From assembly GCF_024810105.1 (NCBI RefSeq), contig NZ_JANUDX010000001.1:558001-622000 (forward strand): a stretch of 64,000 nucleotides of DNA. The letters run 5' to 3'. The notes below the pieces were generated by a model that saw only the letters and a list, made by a program, of their open reading frames with translations, was not told where the DNA came from and ran no database searches. The stretch's first letter is position 1, and each line of letters begins with the position of its first letter. Shown piece after piece: positions 8,350 to 14,798 of this stretch. The DNA comes from Stenotrophomonas sp. BIGb0135 (lineage in GTDB: Bacteria > Pseudomonadota > Gammaproteobacteria > Xanthomonadales > Xanthomonadaceae). The translations under genes were made by a program, and so were the position numbers.

Positions 8350-11300
8350 TCATCCGTCCCAGCGCAGGCCCTTGGGATCGCTGCGGAAGCCCGCCGCGCG
8401 CAGCGCATCGATCAGTGCGCTGCGTGCGACCGGCGCGTCGTCGATCAGCTCCAGGGTGAAACGGGCGCGCCGCGTGCGCCCGAGCGCTGCGGCCAGCGCT
8501 TGGGCCGCCGCGTCTAGCAGGGTGGCGTCGGCGTCGGCGTCGAGCCACGTCAGGAGATGCCGGCCGCCCTGCGCCAGGTACATCTGCAGGCGACCGCCGA
8601 CGATGACCACCAGCGCGCCGGCGCGCCGCAGCGGCCGCAGGGAGGCGGTATGCGGTGGCCAGGGCAACACGCCGCCGAACGGGTTGGCCGGATCGACCAC
8701 GGACAGCGCGACGGCGACGCTGGAGCGCCCGGTGCCCGACGCCTCGGCGATCCCGCGCAGCCGGTCCACCGTGGTCCGCTCGGCGAACTGCGCGCCGCCG
8801 AGCGTCGCCACGAACCGGCCGCGCAGCACGCGGCCGGCATCCTCCATGCCGCGATACACCTGCTGCAAGGCGGGGAAGCCGCCTGCGATGCCTTCGGCGA
8901 CGGCCGCGCCGCGGGTGACGATGGCGTGGCGGTCCAACAGCGCGTCGGCCAGGGCCACCGCGCGCAGCGTGTCGCTGGTGGCCTGCCGATGCAGCAACGA
9001 CCAGCGCCCGGCCAGCGTGGCGGCGGTGAACGCGACCACGCGCGGCGCGGCGCCGTGGGGCGCAACCGCGGGATCGTGCATCGGGATGCCGCGCACCCGG
9101 CTGCTTCGTCGCGAGGTCCTCAGTGCCCGCGGACGCGGCGGCCGCAGTCCGGCCAGCTCACGCAGCGGATTCCAGATGTCGGTGGTGAGGTAGCCGCGCC
9201 AGGCGAGGTCCCACAGCGCGGTGTGCAGCGCATCGGGACTGACCTCCGCGCCCGCCTGCCCCCCGGCGGCGCCAGGCCAGCGCGCCTGCACCGCGGCGGC
9301 AAGCTGCCAGGCGAAGTAGGCCCCGCCATCGGCCAGCAACTGCAGGATCGCCTCTTGCAGCGGCGAGTGTTCCGCCGACAGCGGCAGCGGTGGCAAGGAC
9401 TCGAACGCGAACTCCTGCAGGTGCAGGGAGACCAGCCCATCGTCCTCGCCCAGCCGGCCATGGCCAGACCAGACCACGGCGCCGGTGGCAAGCAACGCGT
9501 CGAGCAGCGCCGGCACGTAGTCGTGCACGCGCGCCGGCAGGATCTGGCTTTCCCATACAGAGACAGGCGCCGGCACGCCGGCCAGCAGCTCAACCACACG
9601 GGTCACGCCGTCGATGCCGTCCAGCGCACCCGTGGTGGACGCGGTCGCACCGCGTGCGGGCGGCGTTGCATCCGCCACCAGCCCGTGCCGCTCCAACAGC
9701 AACAACGCATACGCCTCGGGCGGCACTGGCCGGGTAGCGTCGCGGGCCGCCTGCAGCGAGCGCATGCGCAGCCGACGCAGGACGTCCTCGCCCACCCACT
9801 CATGGGTGGCCAACGGTGACAGCCCGGCAGGCGACGTGGCCGCATCCTGCTGGCGACAGACGACGCCGAAACTGCCCTTGAGGACGCTGCCCTGCGTGGC
9901 AAGCCGCTCCAGCGCCGCGTCGGCCACCGCCACGCCGAGCCCGAATGCAGCGGCCGCCTCGGCGCTGGTGAACGGGCGGTGGGTGCGCGCATAACGCGCG
10001 AGCAGCTCACCCAATGGATCGGCGGAGGGCTGCCGGAACACGGCTGGCACCTCGGCCGGGAGCATCACGCCCAGCGCATCGCGCAGGCGCGCGGCGTCTT
10101 CGACAGCCGCCCAGCGCATGCTGCCGGCCACGGGCACCTGGATCGCCCGGTGCTCGCGCTCGAGCGCCTGCAGGTGTTGGAGGGCATCGGGCGTGGCGTC
10201 GGCGAGGCGCTCGGCCACCGCCGTGACCGACAGCGGCCCGAGCACGCGCAGCAGGTCTGCCACGCCTTCCTTGCCTTTGGCGCGGCGTTCCGGCGCACGC
10301 TGTTGCAGGAGATTGCCGACCTGCTCCACCACGGCGGGGTCCAGCAGTTCGCCCAGGTCGACCTGCCCCAGCAGGTCCGCCAACAGGCCGCTGTCGAGCG
10401 ACAGCACCGACGCACGGCGTTCGGCGAGCGGCACGTCGGTGCCATACATGAACTCGGCGACGTAGCCGAACAGCAGGTTCGCCGCGAACGGCGACGGCAC
10501 CTCGGTGGTGACCTCGACGATCTCGATGCCGCCTTCGGCCAGCCGCTGCATCAGCGCGGCCAGGGCGTCGAGGTCGTAGACGTCCTGCAGGCACTCGCGC
10601 GCGGCCTCGAGGAGGATCGGGAAATCCGGATAGCGTTGCGCGATGGCCAGCAGTTCGCCGGCGCGCAGGCGCTGTTGCCACAGTGGCGAGCGTCGGCCCG
10701 GACTGCGCCGCGGCAGCAGCAGCGCGCGCGCCGCACACTCGCGGAAACGCGCGGCGAACAGGGCCGAGCCGCCGACCGCCCGGGTCACCTCGTCGCGCAG
10801 CCGTTCCGGCTCGAACAGGAACAGCGCCGCACCCGGCAGGCGGCCGGTGGCATCGGGGACGCGCAGGAGGATGCCGTCGTCGCTGGCCACCACCGTCGGG
10901 TCCACGCCCCAGCGCTCGCGGATACGGCCGGCCAGCGCCAATGCCCAGGGATCGTGGACGCGGCGACCATAGGGCGAATGCAGCATCACCCGCCAGTCGC
11001 CGGATTCGTCGCGGCACCGCTCCACCACCAGCCGGCGGTCGGTGGGCAGCGTGCCGGTGGACTGCCGTTGTTCCTCGACCAGCCCCAGCATGTTGCGGAT
11101 GGCATTGCCGGCCAGGCCACTGGCCTGCAGCCGCGCGTCCAGCGACGGCGGAATGCCGCCGTCGCCTCCATCGGCGGCTGCGTCCAGGGCGGCAAGGAAC
11201 GCGCCTACCGCCGCGCCCAGTTCCGCCGGCCGGCCCACGCCTTCGCCGCGCCAGAACGGCAGCCGCGCCGAGCGCCCGGGCGCCGGGGTGACCACCACCT

Positions 11301-13125
11301 GGTCATGGGTGATCTGCTCGATGCGCCAGGAGGTCGCGCCGAGGGTGATCACATCATTGACCCGCGACTCGTGCACCATTTCCTCGTCCAGTTCGCCGAC
11401 GCGGCGCGAGCCGGCACGCTCTTCGCCTTCGGGCAGCATCACGCTGAACATGCCGCGGTCGGGGATGGTGCCGCCGCTGGTGACCGCCAACTGCTTGGCG
11501 CCAGGGCGCGCGCTCAGTTCACCGGTGTGCCGGTTCCAGACCAGGCGCGGGCGGAAGCCAGCGAAGTCATCGGAGGGATAGCGCCCGGCGAGCATGTCCA
11601 GGGTGGCATCGAACGCGCTGCGCGGCAGCGTGCGGTACGGCGCGGCACGGCGCACGCGGGCATACCAGGCGTCCACGTCCAGCGTGTCCATCGCCGCCGC
11701 GGCGACGGTCTGCTGGGCCAGCACGTCCAGCGGATTGCGGGGCGGGTCCACCGCCTCGATGCGGCCGGCCAGCATGCCTTCGATGGCGACCGTCGCGTCG
11801 ATCAGGTCGCGCCGTGTGCGTGGGTAGACCAGGCCGGTGGAAATGCCGCCGACCTGGTGGCTGGCGCGCCCCACCCGCTGCAGCGCGCTGGCCACCGAGG
11901 GCGGCGCGGCGACCTGGATGACCAGGTCGACCAGGCCCATGTCGATGCCCAGTTCCAGGCTGGAGGTGGCCACCACGCAGCGCAGTTCGCCGGACTTCAA
12001 GGCCTGCTCGATGTCGCGGCGCTGCTCCTTGGAGACCGAGCCATGGTGCGAACGCGCGATCAGCGCCGGTGCGCCGGCGGTGCGCCCGCTGGTGCCGCCG
12101 TTGAAGGATCCGTAGTGCGATGCGGGGTCGGCACTCTCCGCCGCCGATGCCGGCGCGGCGTGCAACGCAGGATCGCGTGCCAGGCGCTCTGCGTACACCT
12201 CGTTGAGGCGCGCGGTGAGTTTCTCGGCCACGCCACGCGAGTTGGCGAACACGATGGTGGAGCGCCGCTGCAGGACCTGGTCCAGGATGCTGCTTTCCAC
12301 GTGGGGCCAGATCGAGCCTACCCGGCCGGGTTCGTCGCCGGCGCGCGCGGGAATGTCGGCCATGTCCTCCACGGGTACCACGATCCGCACGTCCAACTGG
12401 CGCGCCGAGGGCGGATTGACCACGGTGACGGGGCGATCGCCACCGAGGAAGGCGGCCACCTGTTCCACCGGCCGCACCGTGGCCGACAGCCCGATCCGCT
12501 GCGCCGGCTGCGCCAGCAAGGCGTCCAGGCGCTCCAAGCTCAGCGCCAGGTGGCTGCCGCGCTTGGTGCCGGCCACCGCGTGGATTTCATCGACGATCAC
12601 GCTGTGTACGCCGCGCAGCGTCTCGCGTGCCTGCGAGGTGAGCATCAGGAACAGCGATTCCGGCGTGGTGATCAGGATGTCCGGCGGCCGCCGCACCAGC
12701 CGGGCGCGTTCGGCGGCCGGGGTATCCCCGCTCCGGATGCCGACCGAGAGGTTCAGCGCCGGGTCGCCGCGTCGCTCGCGCGCGGCGTTGACGCCCTGCA
12801 GGGGAACCTGCAGGTTGCGATGCACGTCGGCACCGAGTGCTTTGATCGGTGAGATGTACAGCACCCGCGTGCCGATGGGCGCAGCGGCAGCGGGCGGCTG
12901 CCGTTCGCGCTCGCGGAATAGTTGGTCGATGGCATGCAGGAAGGCGGCCAGCGTCTTGCCCGATCCGGTCGGGGCGATCACCAGCGTATGCGCACCGGCG
13001 CCGATGGCCGCCCATGCATGCGCCTGCACCGGCGTGGGAGCATCGAAGGCGGCGGCGAACCAGGCGCGGGTGGCGGGCGCGAACGCGTCCAAGGCAGCGA
13101 TGGCGGGAGGAACCGGGTCGGACAT
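8350..13125 (-). CDS. lhr: Lhr-type superfamily 2 DNA helicase, full length
   Basis: A 1591-aa Lhr (large helicase-related) protein. Lhr is a 3'-5' ssDNA translocase of DNA repair. The helicase core is intact: Walker A APTGSGKT near residue 54, motif Ia YISPIKAL, motif II VDEIHAV near residue 175, motif III LSATVRP, motif V/VI SSLELGIDMG and ALQRVGRASH. Winged-helix and Lhr-core domains follow to about residue 870. The remaining 700 residues match the long C-terminal region of enterobacterial-type Lhr, which in E. coli has been reported to be a uracil-DNA glycosylase; whether its active site is kept here was not resolved. It begins 34 bases after xthA on the same strand, suggesting a repair operon. 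Confidence 0.93.
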   Translation of the reverse strand: MSDPVPPAIAALDAFAPATRAWFAAAFDAPTPVQAHAWAAIGAGAHTLVIAPTGSGKTLAAFLHAIDQLFRERERQPPAAAAPIGTRVLYISPIKALGADVHRNLQVPLQGVNAARERRGDPALNLSVGIRSGDTPAAERARLVRRPPDILITTPESLFLMLTSQARETLRGVHSVIVDEIHAVAGTKRGSHLALSLERLDALLAQPAQRIGLSATVRPVEQVAAFLGGDRPVTVVNPPSARQLDVRIVVPVEDMADIPARAGDEPGRVGSIWPHVESSILDQVLQRRSTIVFANSRGVAEKLTARLNEVYAERLARDPALHAAPASAAESADPASHYGSFNGGTSGRTAGAPALIARSHHGSVSKEQRRDIEQALKSGELRCVVATSSLELGIDMGLVDLVIQVAAPPSVASALQRVGRASHQVGGISTGLVYPRTRRDLIDATVAIEGMLAGRIEAVDPPRNPLDVLAQQTVAAAAMDTLDVDAWYARVRRAAPYRTLPRSAFDATLDMLAGRYPSDDFAGFRPRLVWNRHTGELSARPGAKQLAVTSGGTIPDRGMFSVMLPEGEERAGSRRVGELDEEMVHESRVNDVITLGATSWRIEQITHDQVVVTPAPGRSARLPFWRGEGVGRPAELGAAVGAFLAALDAAADGGDGGIPPSLDARLQASGLAGNAIRNMLGLVEEQRQSTGTLPTDRRLVVERCRDESGDWRVMLHSPYGRRVHDPWALALAGRIRERWGVDPTVVASDDGILLRVPDATGRLPGAALFLFEPERLRDEVTRAVGGSALFAARFRECAARALLLPRRSPGRRSPLWQQRLRAGELLAIAQRYPDFPILLEAARECLQDVYDLDALAALMQRLAEGGIEIVEVTTEVPSPFAANLLFGYVAEFMYGTDVPLAERRASVLSLDSGLLADLLGQVDLGELLDPAVVEQVGNLLQQRAPERRAKGKEGVADLLRVLGPLSVTAVAERLADATPDALQHLQALEREHRAIQVPVAGSMRWAAVEDAARLRDALGVMLPAEVPAVFRQPSADPLGELLARYARTHRPFTSAEAAAAFGLGVAVADAALERLATQGSVLKGSFGVVCRQQDAATSPAGLSPLATHEWVGEDVLRRLRMRSLQAARDATRPVPPEAYALLLLERHGLVADATPPARGATASTTGALDGIDGVTRVVELLAGVPAPVSVWESQILPARVHDYVPALLDALLATGAVVWSGHGRLGEDDGLVSLHLQEFAFESLPPLPLSAEHSPLQEAILQLLADGGAYFAWQLAAAVQARWPGAAGGQAGAEVSPDALHTALWDLAWRGYLTTDIWNPLRELAGLRPPRPRALRTSRRSSRVRGIPMHDPAVAPHGAAPRVVAFTAATLAGRWSLLHRQATSDTLRAVALADALLDRHAIVTRGAAVAEGIAGGFPALQQVYRGMEDAGRVLRGRFVATLGGAQFAERTTVDRLRGIAEASGTGRSSVAVALSVVDPANPFGGVLPWPPHTASLRPLRRAGALVVIVGGRLQMYLAQGGRHLLTWLDADADATLLDAAAQALAAALGRTRRARFTLELIDDAPVARSALIDALRAAGFRSDPKGLRWDG

Positions 13126-13159: not shown

Positions 13160-13954
13160 TCAAGGCGCCACCACCACCGCCCACGTGGGGGCGTGGTCGC
13201 TGGCCTTGTCCTGCAGCCGCACCCAGCGGTCTACCCCGGCCTCCTGCAGACCGGCGGTCAGAGGCGCGTTGAGCAGCAGATGATCGATGCGCAGCCCGCG
13301 ATCACGCTCGGCATGCTGGCGGAAATAATCCCAGAACGTATAGATGCGTTCGTCCGGATGGCAGTGGCGCAGTGCGTCGGTCCAGCCCTGCACCAGCAGC
13401 CGCTCGAAGGCCGCGCGCGTTTCCGGCTGGAGCAACGCATCCTTGCGCCAGGCGCGGGGGTCGTACACGTCCTCGTCGGTGGGGATGACGTTGAAGTCGC
13501 CCAGGATCGCCACCGGGTGCGGCAGGTCCACCAGCGTCCTGGCGTGCGCGTGCAGGCGCTGCATCCAGCGCAGCTTGTAGTCGAACTTCGGCCCGGGCTG
13601 CGGGTTGCCGTTGGGCAGGTAGATGCCGGCCACCACGATGCCGTGGATGGCGGCCTCGATGTAGCGGCTCTGCGTGTCGGCCGGCTCGCCCGGCAGGCGC
13701 CGCCGGCTCTGCACCGGAGTGACGCCCCTGCCCAGCAACGCCACGCCGTTCCAGCGGCGCTCGCCCAGCCAGAGCGCGCCGTAGCCGGCCGCCTCCAGTT
13801 CGGCCACCGGGAACGCCTGGTCCACCGCTTTGAGCTCCTGCAGCGCGACCACGTCCGGGGTTTCTTTGGCCAGCCATGCCAGCAGCTGCGGCAACCGGTT
13901 GCCGATGCCGTTGACGTTGTAGGTGGCAAGTTTCAGTGTTTTCCTGCGCGGCAT
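13160..13954 (-). CDS. xthA: Exodeoxyribonuclease III / AP endonuclease
   Basis: A 264-aa metal-dependent nuclease of the ExoIII family that cuts 5' to abasic sites and degrades 3' ends. Family residues are all present: N-terminal TYNVNGI, metal-binding Glu in LQELKAVD near residue 34, GDFNVIPTDEDVYD near residue 150, and the C-terminal SDHAPTW with the catalytic His. The ATG at 13954 is preceded by GGAG seven bases upstream; a longer in-frame reading reaches 14125 but would run into the divergent SRAP gene. Its partner downstream is lhr, so AP-site processing and a repair helicase may be expressed together. Confidence 0.92.
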   Translation of the reverse strand: MPRRKTLKLATYNVNGIGNRLPQLLAWLAKETPDVVALQELKAVDQAFPVAELEAAGYGALWLGERRWNGVALLGRGVTPVQSRRRLPGEPADTQSRYIEAAIHGIVVAGIYLPNGNPQPGPKFDYKLRWMQRLHAHARTLVDLPHPVAILGDFNVIPTDEDVYDPRAWRKDALLQPETRAAFERLLVQGWTDALRHCHPDERIYTFWDYFRQHAERDRGLRIDHLLLNAPLTAGLQEAGVDRWVRLQDKASDHAPTWAVVVAP

Positions 13955-14054
13955 CCCCGGGCTCCAGGCGGCCAGGACCTGATTAGACGCTGGCGGGCGT
14001 CGTCGGCGCGTCACACTGACTGGCGGCTCACAACGGCGGCCGTACCCTGCCCGC

Positions 14055-14798
14055 ATGCGCCGCTTCGCCCAAGCCATTGCCGATGCCGCCTCCCTGCCCG
14101 GCGGCCTGCCCGTATCGCTGGCCAACGCGCTGGCCGATGCACCGGACCGCTACAACATCGGCAAGAACGGCGTGGCCACCGTGATCGCGCGCGACGGCGA
14201 TGGCAGCATCGTGCCCGCCGACATGCGCTGGGGCCTGGTGCCGCGCTGGTCGAAAGAGCCGACCACGCCCTACACCACGGTCACCGCACGGCTGGATCGC
14301 GCCGCCAGGAGCCGCATCTTCGCCCAGGCCTGGCAGCAGCGGCCGTGCGTGATCGCGATGAGCGGTTATTACAAGTGGGACAGGCAACGCAAGCCGCCGT
14401 GGCCCCTGTTCGTGCAGCGCACGGACGGGTTGGCGCTGCTGGCCGCCGGGCTCTGGGAGCACTGGGAGCATCCGGACGGCGACCAGATCGACAGCTTCAC
14501 CGTGCTGACCGCCCCGAACACCGCCATACCGGCCCCGCTCACGCCCGATGGCCCGGTGTTCATCGACGGCAGCGTCGCCATGGCATGGCTGGCCGGCGCA
14601 CTGCAGGCTCCCGCCGACCTGCGCGCACAGGCGCGCACGCCAGCGCTGGAGGCGTATCCGGTAAGCCGCGCGTTCCGTGATCCGGACCGCGACGACTACA
14701 CGTTGCTGGAGCCGGTGGATCCCGACGCCGATGCGCCTGCGGACGCGGCCAGCGCCTGGGATGACGATGCCCTGGAAGAAGACGACGGCACGCAGTGA
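14055..14798 (+). CDS. SRAP (YedK/HMCES-like) family protein lacking catalytic residues
   Basis: The 247-aa protein aligns along its length with SRAP proteins, which crosslink to abasic sites in ssDNA. Recognisable blocks are DRYNIG, RWGLVPRWSK, TARLDRAARSRIFAQAW, MSGYYKWD, FTVLTAPNT and YPVSRAF. However, the family start MCGRFAQ is MRRFAQ here, so catalytic Cys2 is absent. The NAR motif Asn is Thr (TAR), the FYEW-type Glu is Lys (YYKW) and the catalytic His region reads IPAPLTPDGP without His. Frame and blocks are otherwise intact, so it is a divergent, probably non-enzymatic paralogue, not a broken gene. The tail is acidic. It is divergent from xthA with a 100-base gap. Confidence 0.85.
   Translation: MRRFAQAIADAASLPGGLPVSLANALADAPDRYNIGKNGVATVIARDGDGSIVPADMRWGLVPRWSKEPTTPYTTVTARLDRAARSRIFAQAWQQRPCVIAMSGYYKWDRQRKPPWPLFVQRTDGLALLAAGLWEHWEHPDGDQIDSFTVLTAPNTAIPAPLTPDGPVFIDGSVAMAWLAGALQAPADLRAQARTPALEAYPVSRAFRDPDRDDYTLLEPVDPDADAPADAASAWDDDALEEDDGTQ

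Follow-up and report, generated by a model that had tools for sequence, protein, structure and literature searches.

What becomes of a SRAP protein when the residues that carry its chemistry are gone? SRAP function is tied to crosslinking via a cysteine in excerpts of a mechanistic study of YedK (PMC9436759), and excerpts of the SRAP-defining paper (PMC3765255) describe this cysteine as absolutely conserved and invariably at position 2. In a stretch of 64,000 nucleotides from Stenotrophomonas sp. BIGb0135, here called the window, one gene had been predicted from its letters to encode a SRAP-family protein devoid of Cys2, of the Asn of its NAR motif, of the Glu of its FYEW motif and of the catalytic His. 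The original prediction regarded this selective loss, with the rest preserved, as the mark of a pseudo-enzyme, perhaps a decoy or regulator, encoded next to xthA and lhr; an upstream start restoring MCGR, or orthologues with the four residues, would have spoken against it. We call the protein pseudo-SRAP and its relatives the pseudo-SRAPs; loci are given by their L numbers. Coordinates of the features discussed are listed in Table 1.

Table 1. Features of the window at and around the pseudo-SRAP gene.
Feature	Position	Strand	Basis or remark
lhr large helicase, next beyond xthA	8350..13125	-	four Lhr domains; matches to WH_Lhr, WH2/3/4_Lhr and DEAD_assoc
xthA-like exonuclease III/AP endonuclease, divergent neighbour	13160..13954	-	Exo_endo_phos, 83.5 bits; named by resemblance; start chosen by us
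Intergenic region, xthA-like gene to pseudo-SRAP gene	13955..14054	.	100 bases
TACCCT, resembling a -10 hexamer, 12 bases upstream of the ATG	14043..14048	+	possible leaderless transcript
Pseudo-SRAP gene	14055..14798	+	ATG start, 247 amino acids plus stop; open reading frame, PF02586 match and SRAP fold
Codons Met1-Arg2-Arg3	14055..14063	+	Cys2 lost by deletion, Arg in place of Gly3; Met1 at the place of mature Cys2
Thr77 in place of catalytic Asn75	14283..14285	+	Thr in 55/55 pseudo-SRAPs; Asn in 56/56 canonical SRAPs and YedK
Lys107 in place of catalytic Glu105	14373..14375	+	Lys in 55/55 pseudo-SRAPs; Glu in 56/56 canonical SRAPs and YedK
Thr163-Pro-Asp165-Gly166-Pro167 in place of His160-x-Arg162-x-Pro164	14541..14555	+	alignment
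Acidic C-terminal tail	14718..14795	+	net charge -11 in the window protein; last 12 residues (236-247) predicted disordered, pLDDT < 50

The window gene encodes a SRAP homologue

Comparison of the gene product with Pfam revealed a match of 127.6 bits to SRAP (PF02586; cut-off 27.1), which places it in the SRAP superfamily by sequence, and among structure chains the sequence matched YedK (E = 5e-13) and HMCES (E = 1e-11). An AlphaFold2 model built from 24 sequences had a pLDDT of 88 and a pTM of 0.86. A Foldseek search with this model yielded 21 chains at E <= 0.001, every one of them a SRAP structure; 1zn6, 2f20, 2aeg, 2bdv and 2icu are named as SRAP structures in excerpts of PMC3765255. Superposition of the model on YedK (6nuh) by VIA-align gave a Z score of 23.9 and an rmsd of 2.8 over 214 residues, and Z scores of 17.7-23.9 across 15 entries assign it to the SRAP (BB1717-like) fold. 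The NCBIfam search of the protein returned no curated family, the best being NF007413 at 49 bits for a cut-off of 349, and a PADLOC search for known anti-phage families found none at E <= 1. Clearly, the window gene is a SRAP homologue and its model a confident SRAP, as the profile match, the YedK and HMCES matches and the modelled fold all bear out.

Catalytic residues are lost and mostly replaced by invariant ones

We aligned 55 distinct complete relatives forming the window clade, obtained from 66 loci after identical copies and the broken copy L077 had been dropped, with 56 canonical SRAPs and YedK. Starts of the canonical proteins were picked by an MC[GSNAD][RVI]-type motif, so that their Cys2 frequency of 100% is partly so by construction; Asn, Glu and His played no part in choosing them. 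Loci L027 and L044 yielded no canonical protein, the partial L028 was dropped and stretches L045-L049 were left out of this set.

In YedK, the N-terminal amine attacks the AP aldehyde, and Glu105 and His160 open the ring, as excerpts of PMC9436759 describe. In YedK numbering, Cys2 is a gap in all 55 pseudo-SRAPs, so none of them has an exposed Cys2, and Gly3 has become Arg2, with R2-R3-F4 common to the whole set. Asn75 and Glu105 have given way to Thr77 and Lys107 (Table 1), and the His160 position is occupied by Thr (29), Val (18), Ser (7) or Trp (1), never by His. Arg162, found in 56/56 canonical SRAPs and in YedK, is Asp165 in 55/55 pseudo-SRAPs, G166 is equally constant and D165-G166-P167 is common to all. 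The joint change of E105/R162 to K107/D165 in 55/55 proteins amounts to a charge swap. Conserved arginines at the pocket rim were considered likely DNA contacts by Aravind et al. (excerpts of PMC3765255), in a numbering not matched to Arg162. The window protein retains Arg4, Arg77, Trp106, Thr149, Pro65 and Pro164 of YedK; throughout the clade, Arg4, Arg77, Thr149, Pro65, Trp67 and Pro164 are conserved in 55/55 and Trp106 in 51/55 sequences. Pro40, Lys113, Arg88 and Arg95 are also altered or variable, so the changes exceed the four catalytic residues.

The alignment thus upholds the predicted absence of Cys2, Asn, Glu and His, and since none of the 55 relatives keeps the four residues, the reading as a pseudo-enzyme is supported. 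The loss is selective, as had been proposed, but it extends beyond the four residues. The prediction had also missed that the lost residues are mostly replaced by invariant ones (Arg2, Thr77, Lys107, Asp165). Because most replacements, the His place excepted, are no less constant than the canonical residues, the pattern at positions 2, 77, 107 and 165 favours a new role over relaxed constraint.

Thiazolidine crosslinking has almost certainly been lost in pseudo-SRAP: it is impossible by the known route because the residues of the YedK mechanism are absent. YedK without the Cys2 thiol forms no stable crosslink but a Schiff base, with strand cleavage, according to excerpts of PMC9436759.

The initiator methionine occupies the place of Cys2

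Canonical SRAPs begin with M-C-[GA]-R (57/57, their start having been picked by such a motif) and pseudo-SRAPs with M-R-R. The pseudo-SRAP N-terminus being one codon shorter, its initiator Met falls at the place of the mature Cys2, and in the structural alignments residue 1 of the model was paired with residue 2 of the chain in 14 of 15 rows. Purified YedK lacks its own Met (excerpts of PMC9436759). The Arg at position 2 of pseudo-SRAP should block Met removal, and the mature protein should therefore begin with Met1. Methionine aminopeptidase leaves in place a Met that precedes Arg. With Met1 retained at the Cys2 place, no thiazolidine would be able to form.

A mis-called start does not account for these features. 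An upstream in-frame start giving MC[GA]R was found in 0/55 relatives, and 33 of the 55 have no in-frame ATG, GTG or TTG at all between the upstream stop and MRRF, so that here, too, the pseudo-enzyme reading is supported. Start codons are ATG in 53/55 pseudo-SRAPs, GTG in L103 and CTG in L087, where the true start is unsure.

Pseudo-SRAPs form one clade of the Xanthomonadaceae

A family-wide scan detected pseudo-SRAP in 40 of 297 Xanthomonadaceae genomes and 13 of 54 genera with scores of 243-474 bits, the next best match reaching 133. In a scan of the order (398 genomes), all 21 matches above 240 bits were in Xanthomonadaceae and the best elsewhere had 137 bits; in a scan of the class (369 genomes), nothing outside the family exceeded 164 bits. 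These genome scans scored some first-look candidates per genome only, and copies may have been missed. Nine of the ten best matches outside the family (L147-L155) were read: all nine have Asn, Glu and His motifs of the canonical type, and in two the frame read has no MCGR block at the N-terminus. A named scan gave 23 loci from Stenotrophomonas, Pseudoxanthomonas, Xanthomonas, Luteimonas, Lysobacter and Lysobacteraceae, and from one contig labelled Bacillus subtilis. Occurrence outside the Xanthomonadaceae is thus rejected by the order and class scans, with that contig as the sole exception. On this contig (L055; JAHREJ010000065.1), whose database entry names Bacillus subtilis SK7B5, a Stenotrophomonas-like pseudo-SRAP is found next to a response regulator that shares 68% identity with the window's; the contig is probably contamination or mislabelled. 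What had been read from one Stenotrophomonas locus is therefore a clade across Xanthomonadaceae and not a feature of that genus, which the first reading had missed.

The clade is supported by 100/100 in a careful 46-row tree and by an SH-aLRT of 100 in a quick 68-row tree, in which its stem measures 1.36 changes per column and it adjoins L011, L138 and Stenotrophomonas canonical SRAPs. Branches within the clade roughly track genera, a pattern compatible with an old gene passed on vertically and lost many times; transfer is also possible. A plasmid or phage origin was rejected: 1,486 and 32 records matched, respectively, none at >= 60% identity. Among the 10 records listed for each search, identity was at most 36%, and the one record that was read (phage Smp131) is canonical.

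Among 14 Stenotrophomonas-type rows, nine pairs with dS < 0.65 had dN/dS values of 0.05-0.17, and the median over all 91 pairs was 0.24; two of the 15 closest pairs listed, at dS near 0.7, reach 0.39. Values well below 1 answer the selection question raised with the original prediction: selection on the pseudo-SRAP gene is purifying. One of 40 copies, a Stenotrophomonas-type copy (L077, genome G312), has an internal stop, and the same genome has a canonical SRAP. Because the copy is broken there, the gene is dispensable in that one species.

An acidic tail marks every pseudo-SRAP

Absent from the original prediction was an acidic C-terminal tail that is universal in the clade. It was found in 55/55 pseudo-SRAPs, with 17-26 residues, a net charge of -7 to -13 and a median of 47% Asp/Glu. 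The tails of canonical SRAPs (n = 56), in contrast, have 0-16 residues and net charges of -3 to +1, and 0/56 are acidic tails of this kind. Pseudo-SRAP cores have a median net charge of +3, compared with -2 for canonical SRAPs; the core of the window protein itself has -1.

Genomic neighbourhood

Open reading frames and Pfam matches confirm xthA and lhr upstream of the window gene. A head-to-head arrangement with xthA was seen in five genomes of three lineages, namely the window, L051 and L033, which belong to one Stenotrophomonas group, L090 and L113, in a survey of 75 loci that included several duplicates and flanks of differing length. Near canonical SRAP genes, xthA was found at 0/57 loci, most with flanks of about 1.5 kb and two with less. 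On the 46-row tree, which includes four of the five genomes, the adjacency needs three changes. It is consistent with an ancestral pairing that was subsequently disrupted, and it points to abasic-site repair. Because three lineages have this adjacency, the link to xthA is better than incidental. The lhr gene was seen at the window and L051 only, several loci being too short to show it. No constant operon partner was found across the pseudo-SRAP loci; most neighbourhoods differ.

In the upstream regions of the 55 pseudo-SRAP genes, four LexA-type patterns had no match and a fifth had one. TANNNT stands at exactly -12 in 14/55 relatives, compared with a mean of 0.24 per position over 120 upstream bases (the -12 place included), which suggests a signal for leaderless mRNA.

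In Stenotrophomonas sp. 278, pseudo-SRAP has a LigD gene (L062:6365-8941, minus strand) some 0.6 kb downstream, the product of which combines primase-polymerase, phosphoesterase and ligase domains. SRAP genes had been linked earlier to operons of Ku and ATP-dependent ligase (excerpts of PMC3765255).

Other SRAPs in the same cell

The search for a second, intact SRAP that the original prediction had proposed turned up one further match in the window's genome (62 bits to PF02586). It is a protein of 340 amino acids (L002:1057-2079) that starts with MCYSAQ and in which Cys2, Asn, Glu and His are intact by eye. This protein and other matches of about 55-79 bits make up a third, longer class of SRAPs with low Pfam scores that is common in the family; L002 is the one that was read. 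At least one other SRAP match was present in 26 of the 40 carriers of pseudo-SRAP and none in 14, of which 13 are rated >= 99% complete and one 76%. Because these 14 carriers show no other SRAP match, pseudo-SRAP cannot generally depend for its role on a second SRAP of its cell. While pseudo-enzyme status agrees with the losses in 55/55 proteins and with purifying selection, the decoy part of the earlier proposal is weakened by this distribution.

Canonical SRAPs of the genus, among them L014 and L018, share as much as 87% identity with the one encoded by phage Smp131 (L156:1447-2112), a phage that has an integrase. The active SRAPs of Stenotrophomonas may thus often be prophage genes, and pseudo-SRAP a chromosomal one.

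Possible roles of pseudo-SRAP

With moderate confidence, we favour the view that pseudo-SRAPs are an old paralogue clade of the Xanthomonadaceae that lost crosslinking and was rebuilt to bind DNA non-covalently, with the acidic tail as a gate and a tie to abasic-site repair. The core, with its median net charge above that of canonical SRAPs, would grip single-stranded or junction DNA through the kept Arg4, Arg77 and Thr149 and the mostly kept Trp106. Lys107 may reach the same DNA phosphate as protonated Glu105 does in YedK, where a second conformer of Glu105 touches the phosphate on the 3' side of the AP site (excerpts of PMC9436759). The tail would compete with DNA for the groove or recruit a partner, and pseudo-SRAP would guard abasic or gapped sites, or present them to enzymes such as XthA, without ever becoming a crosslink. 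This account draws on the invariant replacement set, the single clade with its clear score gap in the family and order scans, the SRAP fold of the model, the low dN/dS, the clade-specific tail, the recurrence of xthA next to pseudo-SRAP but not canonical genes, and, from YedK, the Glu105-phosphate contact and the failure to crosslink stably without the Cys2 thiol. Against it, the change of Arg162 to Asp and the loss of Pro40 may have weakened or abolished the binding of DNA in the former pocket, and the core charge of the window protein lies under the clade median. The N75A exchange has only a modest effect in YedK, where Asn75 matters little (excerpts of PMC9436759), so loss of the Asn alone proves little. 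Likewise, xthA is adjacent in only five genomes among mostly differing neighbourhoods, the five LexA-type patterns gave one match in all upstream, and the broken L077 copy shows that one species can do without the gene.

The same two pocket changes, Pro40 and Arg162, would be accommodated if DNA binding had been given up and the fold now served as a protein-interaction or regulatory module, with K107 and D165 as an internal charge pair stabilising the emptied pocket. The joint appearance of both residues, the acidic tail and the lack of a conserved neighbourhood agree with such a protein. We nevertheless consider it rather unlikely, as R4, R77, T149 and W67 are kept in every pseudo-SRAP, W106 in nearly all, and the median core charge lies above that of canonical SRAPs.

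Unlikely, too, is a repurposed amine chemistry, in which Lys107 or the Met1 alpha-amine would react reversibly with AP sites or aldehydic DNA ends to give a Schiff base, the protein acting as AP lyase or transient trap and XthA cleaning the 3' ends. In excerpts of PMC9436759, the YedK variants C2A and C2S form a Schiff base via the N-terminal amine and C2A cuts AP-DNA; Met1 of pseudo-SRAP pairs structurally with residue 2, K107 is invariant and xthA is adjacent in three lineages. A parallel is offered by the mycobacterial lhr operon, which contains the single-stranded-DNA AP lyase nei2 (excerpts of PMC11323726). However, Glu105 and His160 are both gone, and the lyase of YedK C2A E105Q is 25-fold slower than that of C2A, Glu105 driving ring opening and Schiff base formation (excerpts of PMC9436759); in the mycobacterial parallel, crosslink repair neither required the lyase activity nor was achieved by it alone (excerpts of PMC11323726). 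A more elaborate form of this idea seems quite doubtful to us: the SRAP scaffold would have exchanged thiazolidine crosslinking by Cys2/Glu105/His160 for a second chemistry. An amine centre, made up of Lys107 and/or the Met1 alpha-amine together with Asp165 and Thr77, would reversibly capture abasic or 3'-aldehyde DNA as a Schiff base, and the protein would be a lineage-specific AP lyase or trap handing its product to XthA and held in check by the acidic tail.

That pseudo-SRAP serves as decoy or regulator of an active SRAP, from the same cell or from prophages, is very improbable, since 14 of 40 carriers, nearly all of them rated almost complete, show no other SRAP match, even though the remaining 26 do and phage Smp131 encodes a close relative of the canonical SRAPs of the genus. 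An isolated sequencing error or a decaying gene, to which the internal stop of L077 might point, can practically be dismissed as a general account, as 55 complete and distinct relatives share the losses under purifying selection.

Comparison with known SRAP proteins

In the titles and abstract beginnings of the open literature searched, no description of a SRAP clade without the cysteine was found; pseudo-SRAP has the fold and the profile of the superfamily and lacks its catalytic residues. Continued selection on a clade that is spread over a bacterial family, has lost all catalytic residues and has fixed others would mean that the SRAP fold is useful apart from crosslinking. Such a clade would also be a replicated natural experiment in which DNA holding is uncoupled from crosslink chemistry. 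Evolution seems to have kept the SRAP tool and given it a new, putative job.

By sequence, the closest canonical SRAP is L011 with 35% identity. Canonical SRAPs of the order, of the family and of phage Smp131 keep Cys2, Asn, Glu and His, whereas pseudo-SRAPs do not. The best Foldseek match of the window model was the SRAP domain of human HMCES (6oov, E = 1.5e-15). HMCES makes a thiazolidine crosslink to AP sites (excerpts of PMC9436759), which the pseudo-SRAP family cannot do via the Cys2 route. With the Schiff-base form of YedK C2A (8d2m; Z = 23.6), the window protein shares the fold and a thiol-less N-terminal residue at the active site, but 8d2m retains Glu105 and His160, the drivers of its chemistry (excerpts of PMC9436759), and the window protein has neither. 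Compared with E. coli YedK itself, at about 20% identity over the aligned structure, the window protein has no Cys2, Asn75, Glu105, His160 or Arg162, is expected to keep its Met1 and carries an acidic tail, yet it shares with YedK the SRAP fold together with R4, R77, W106, T149, P65 and P164.
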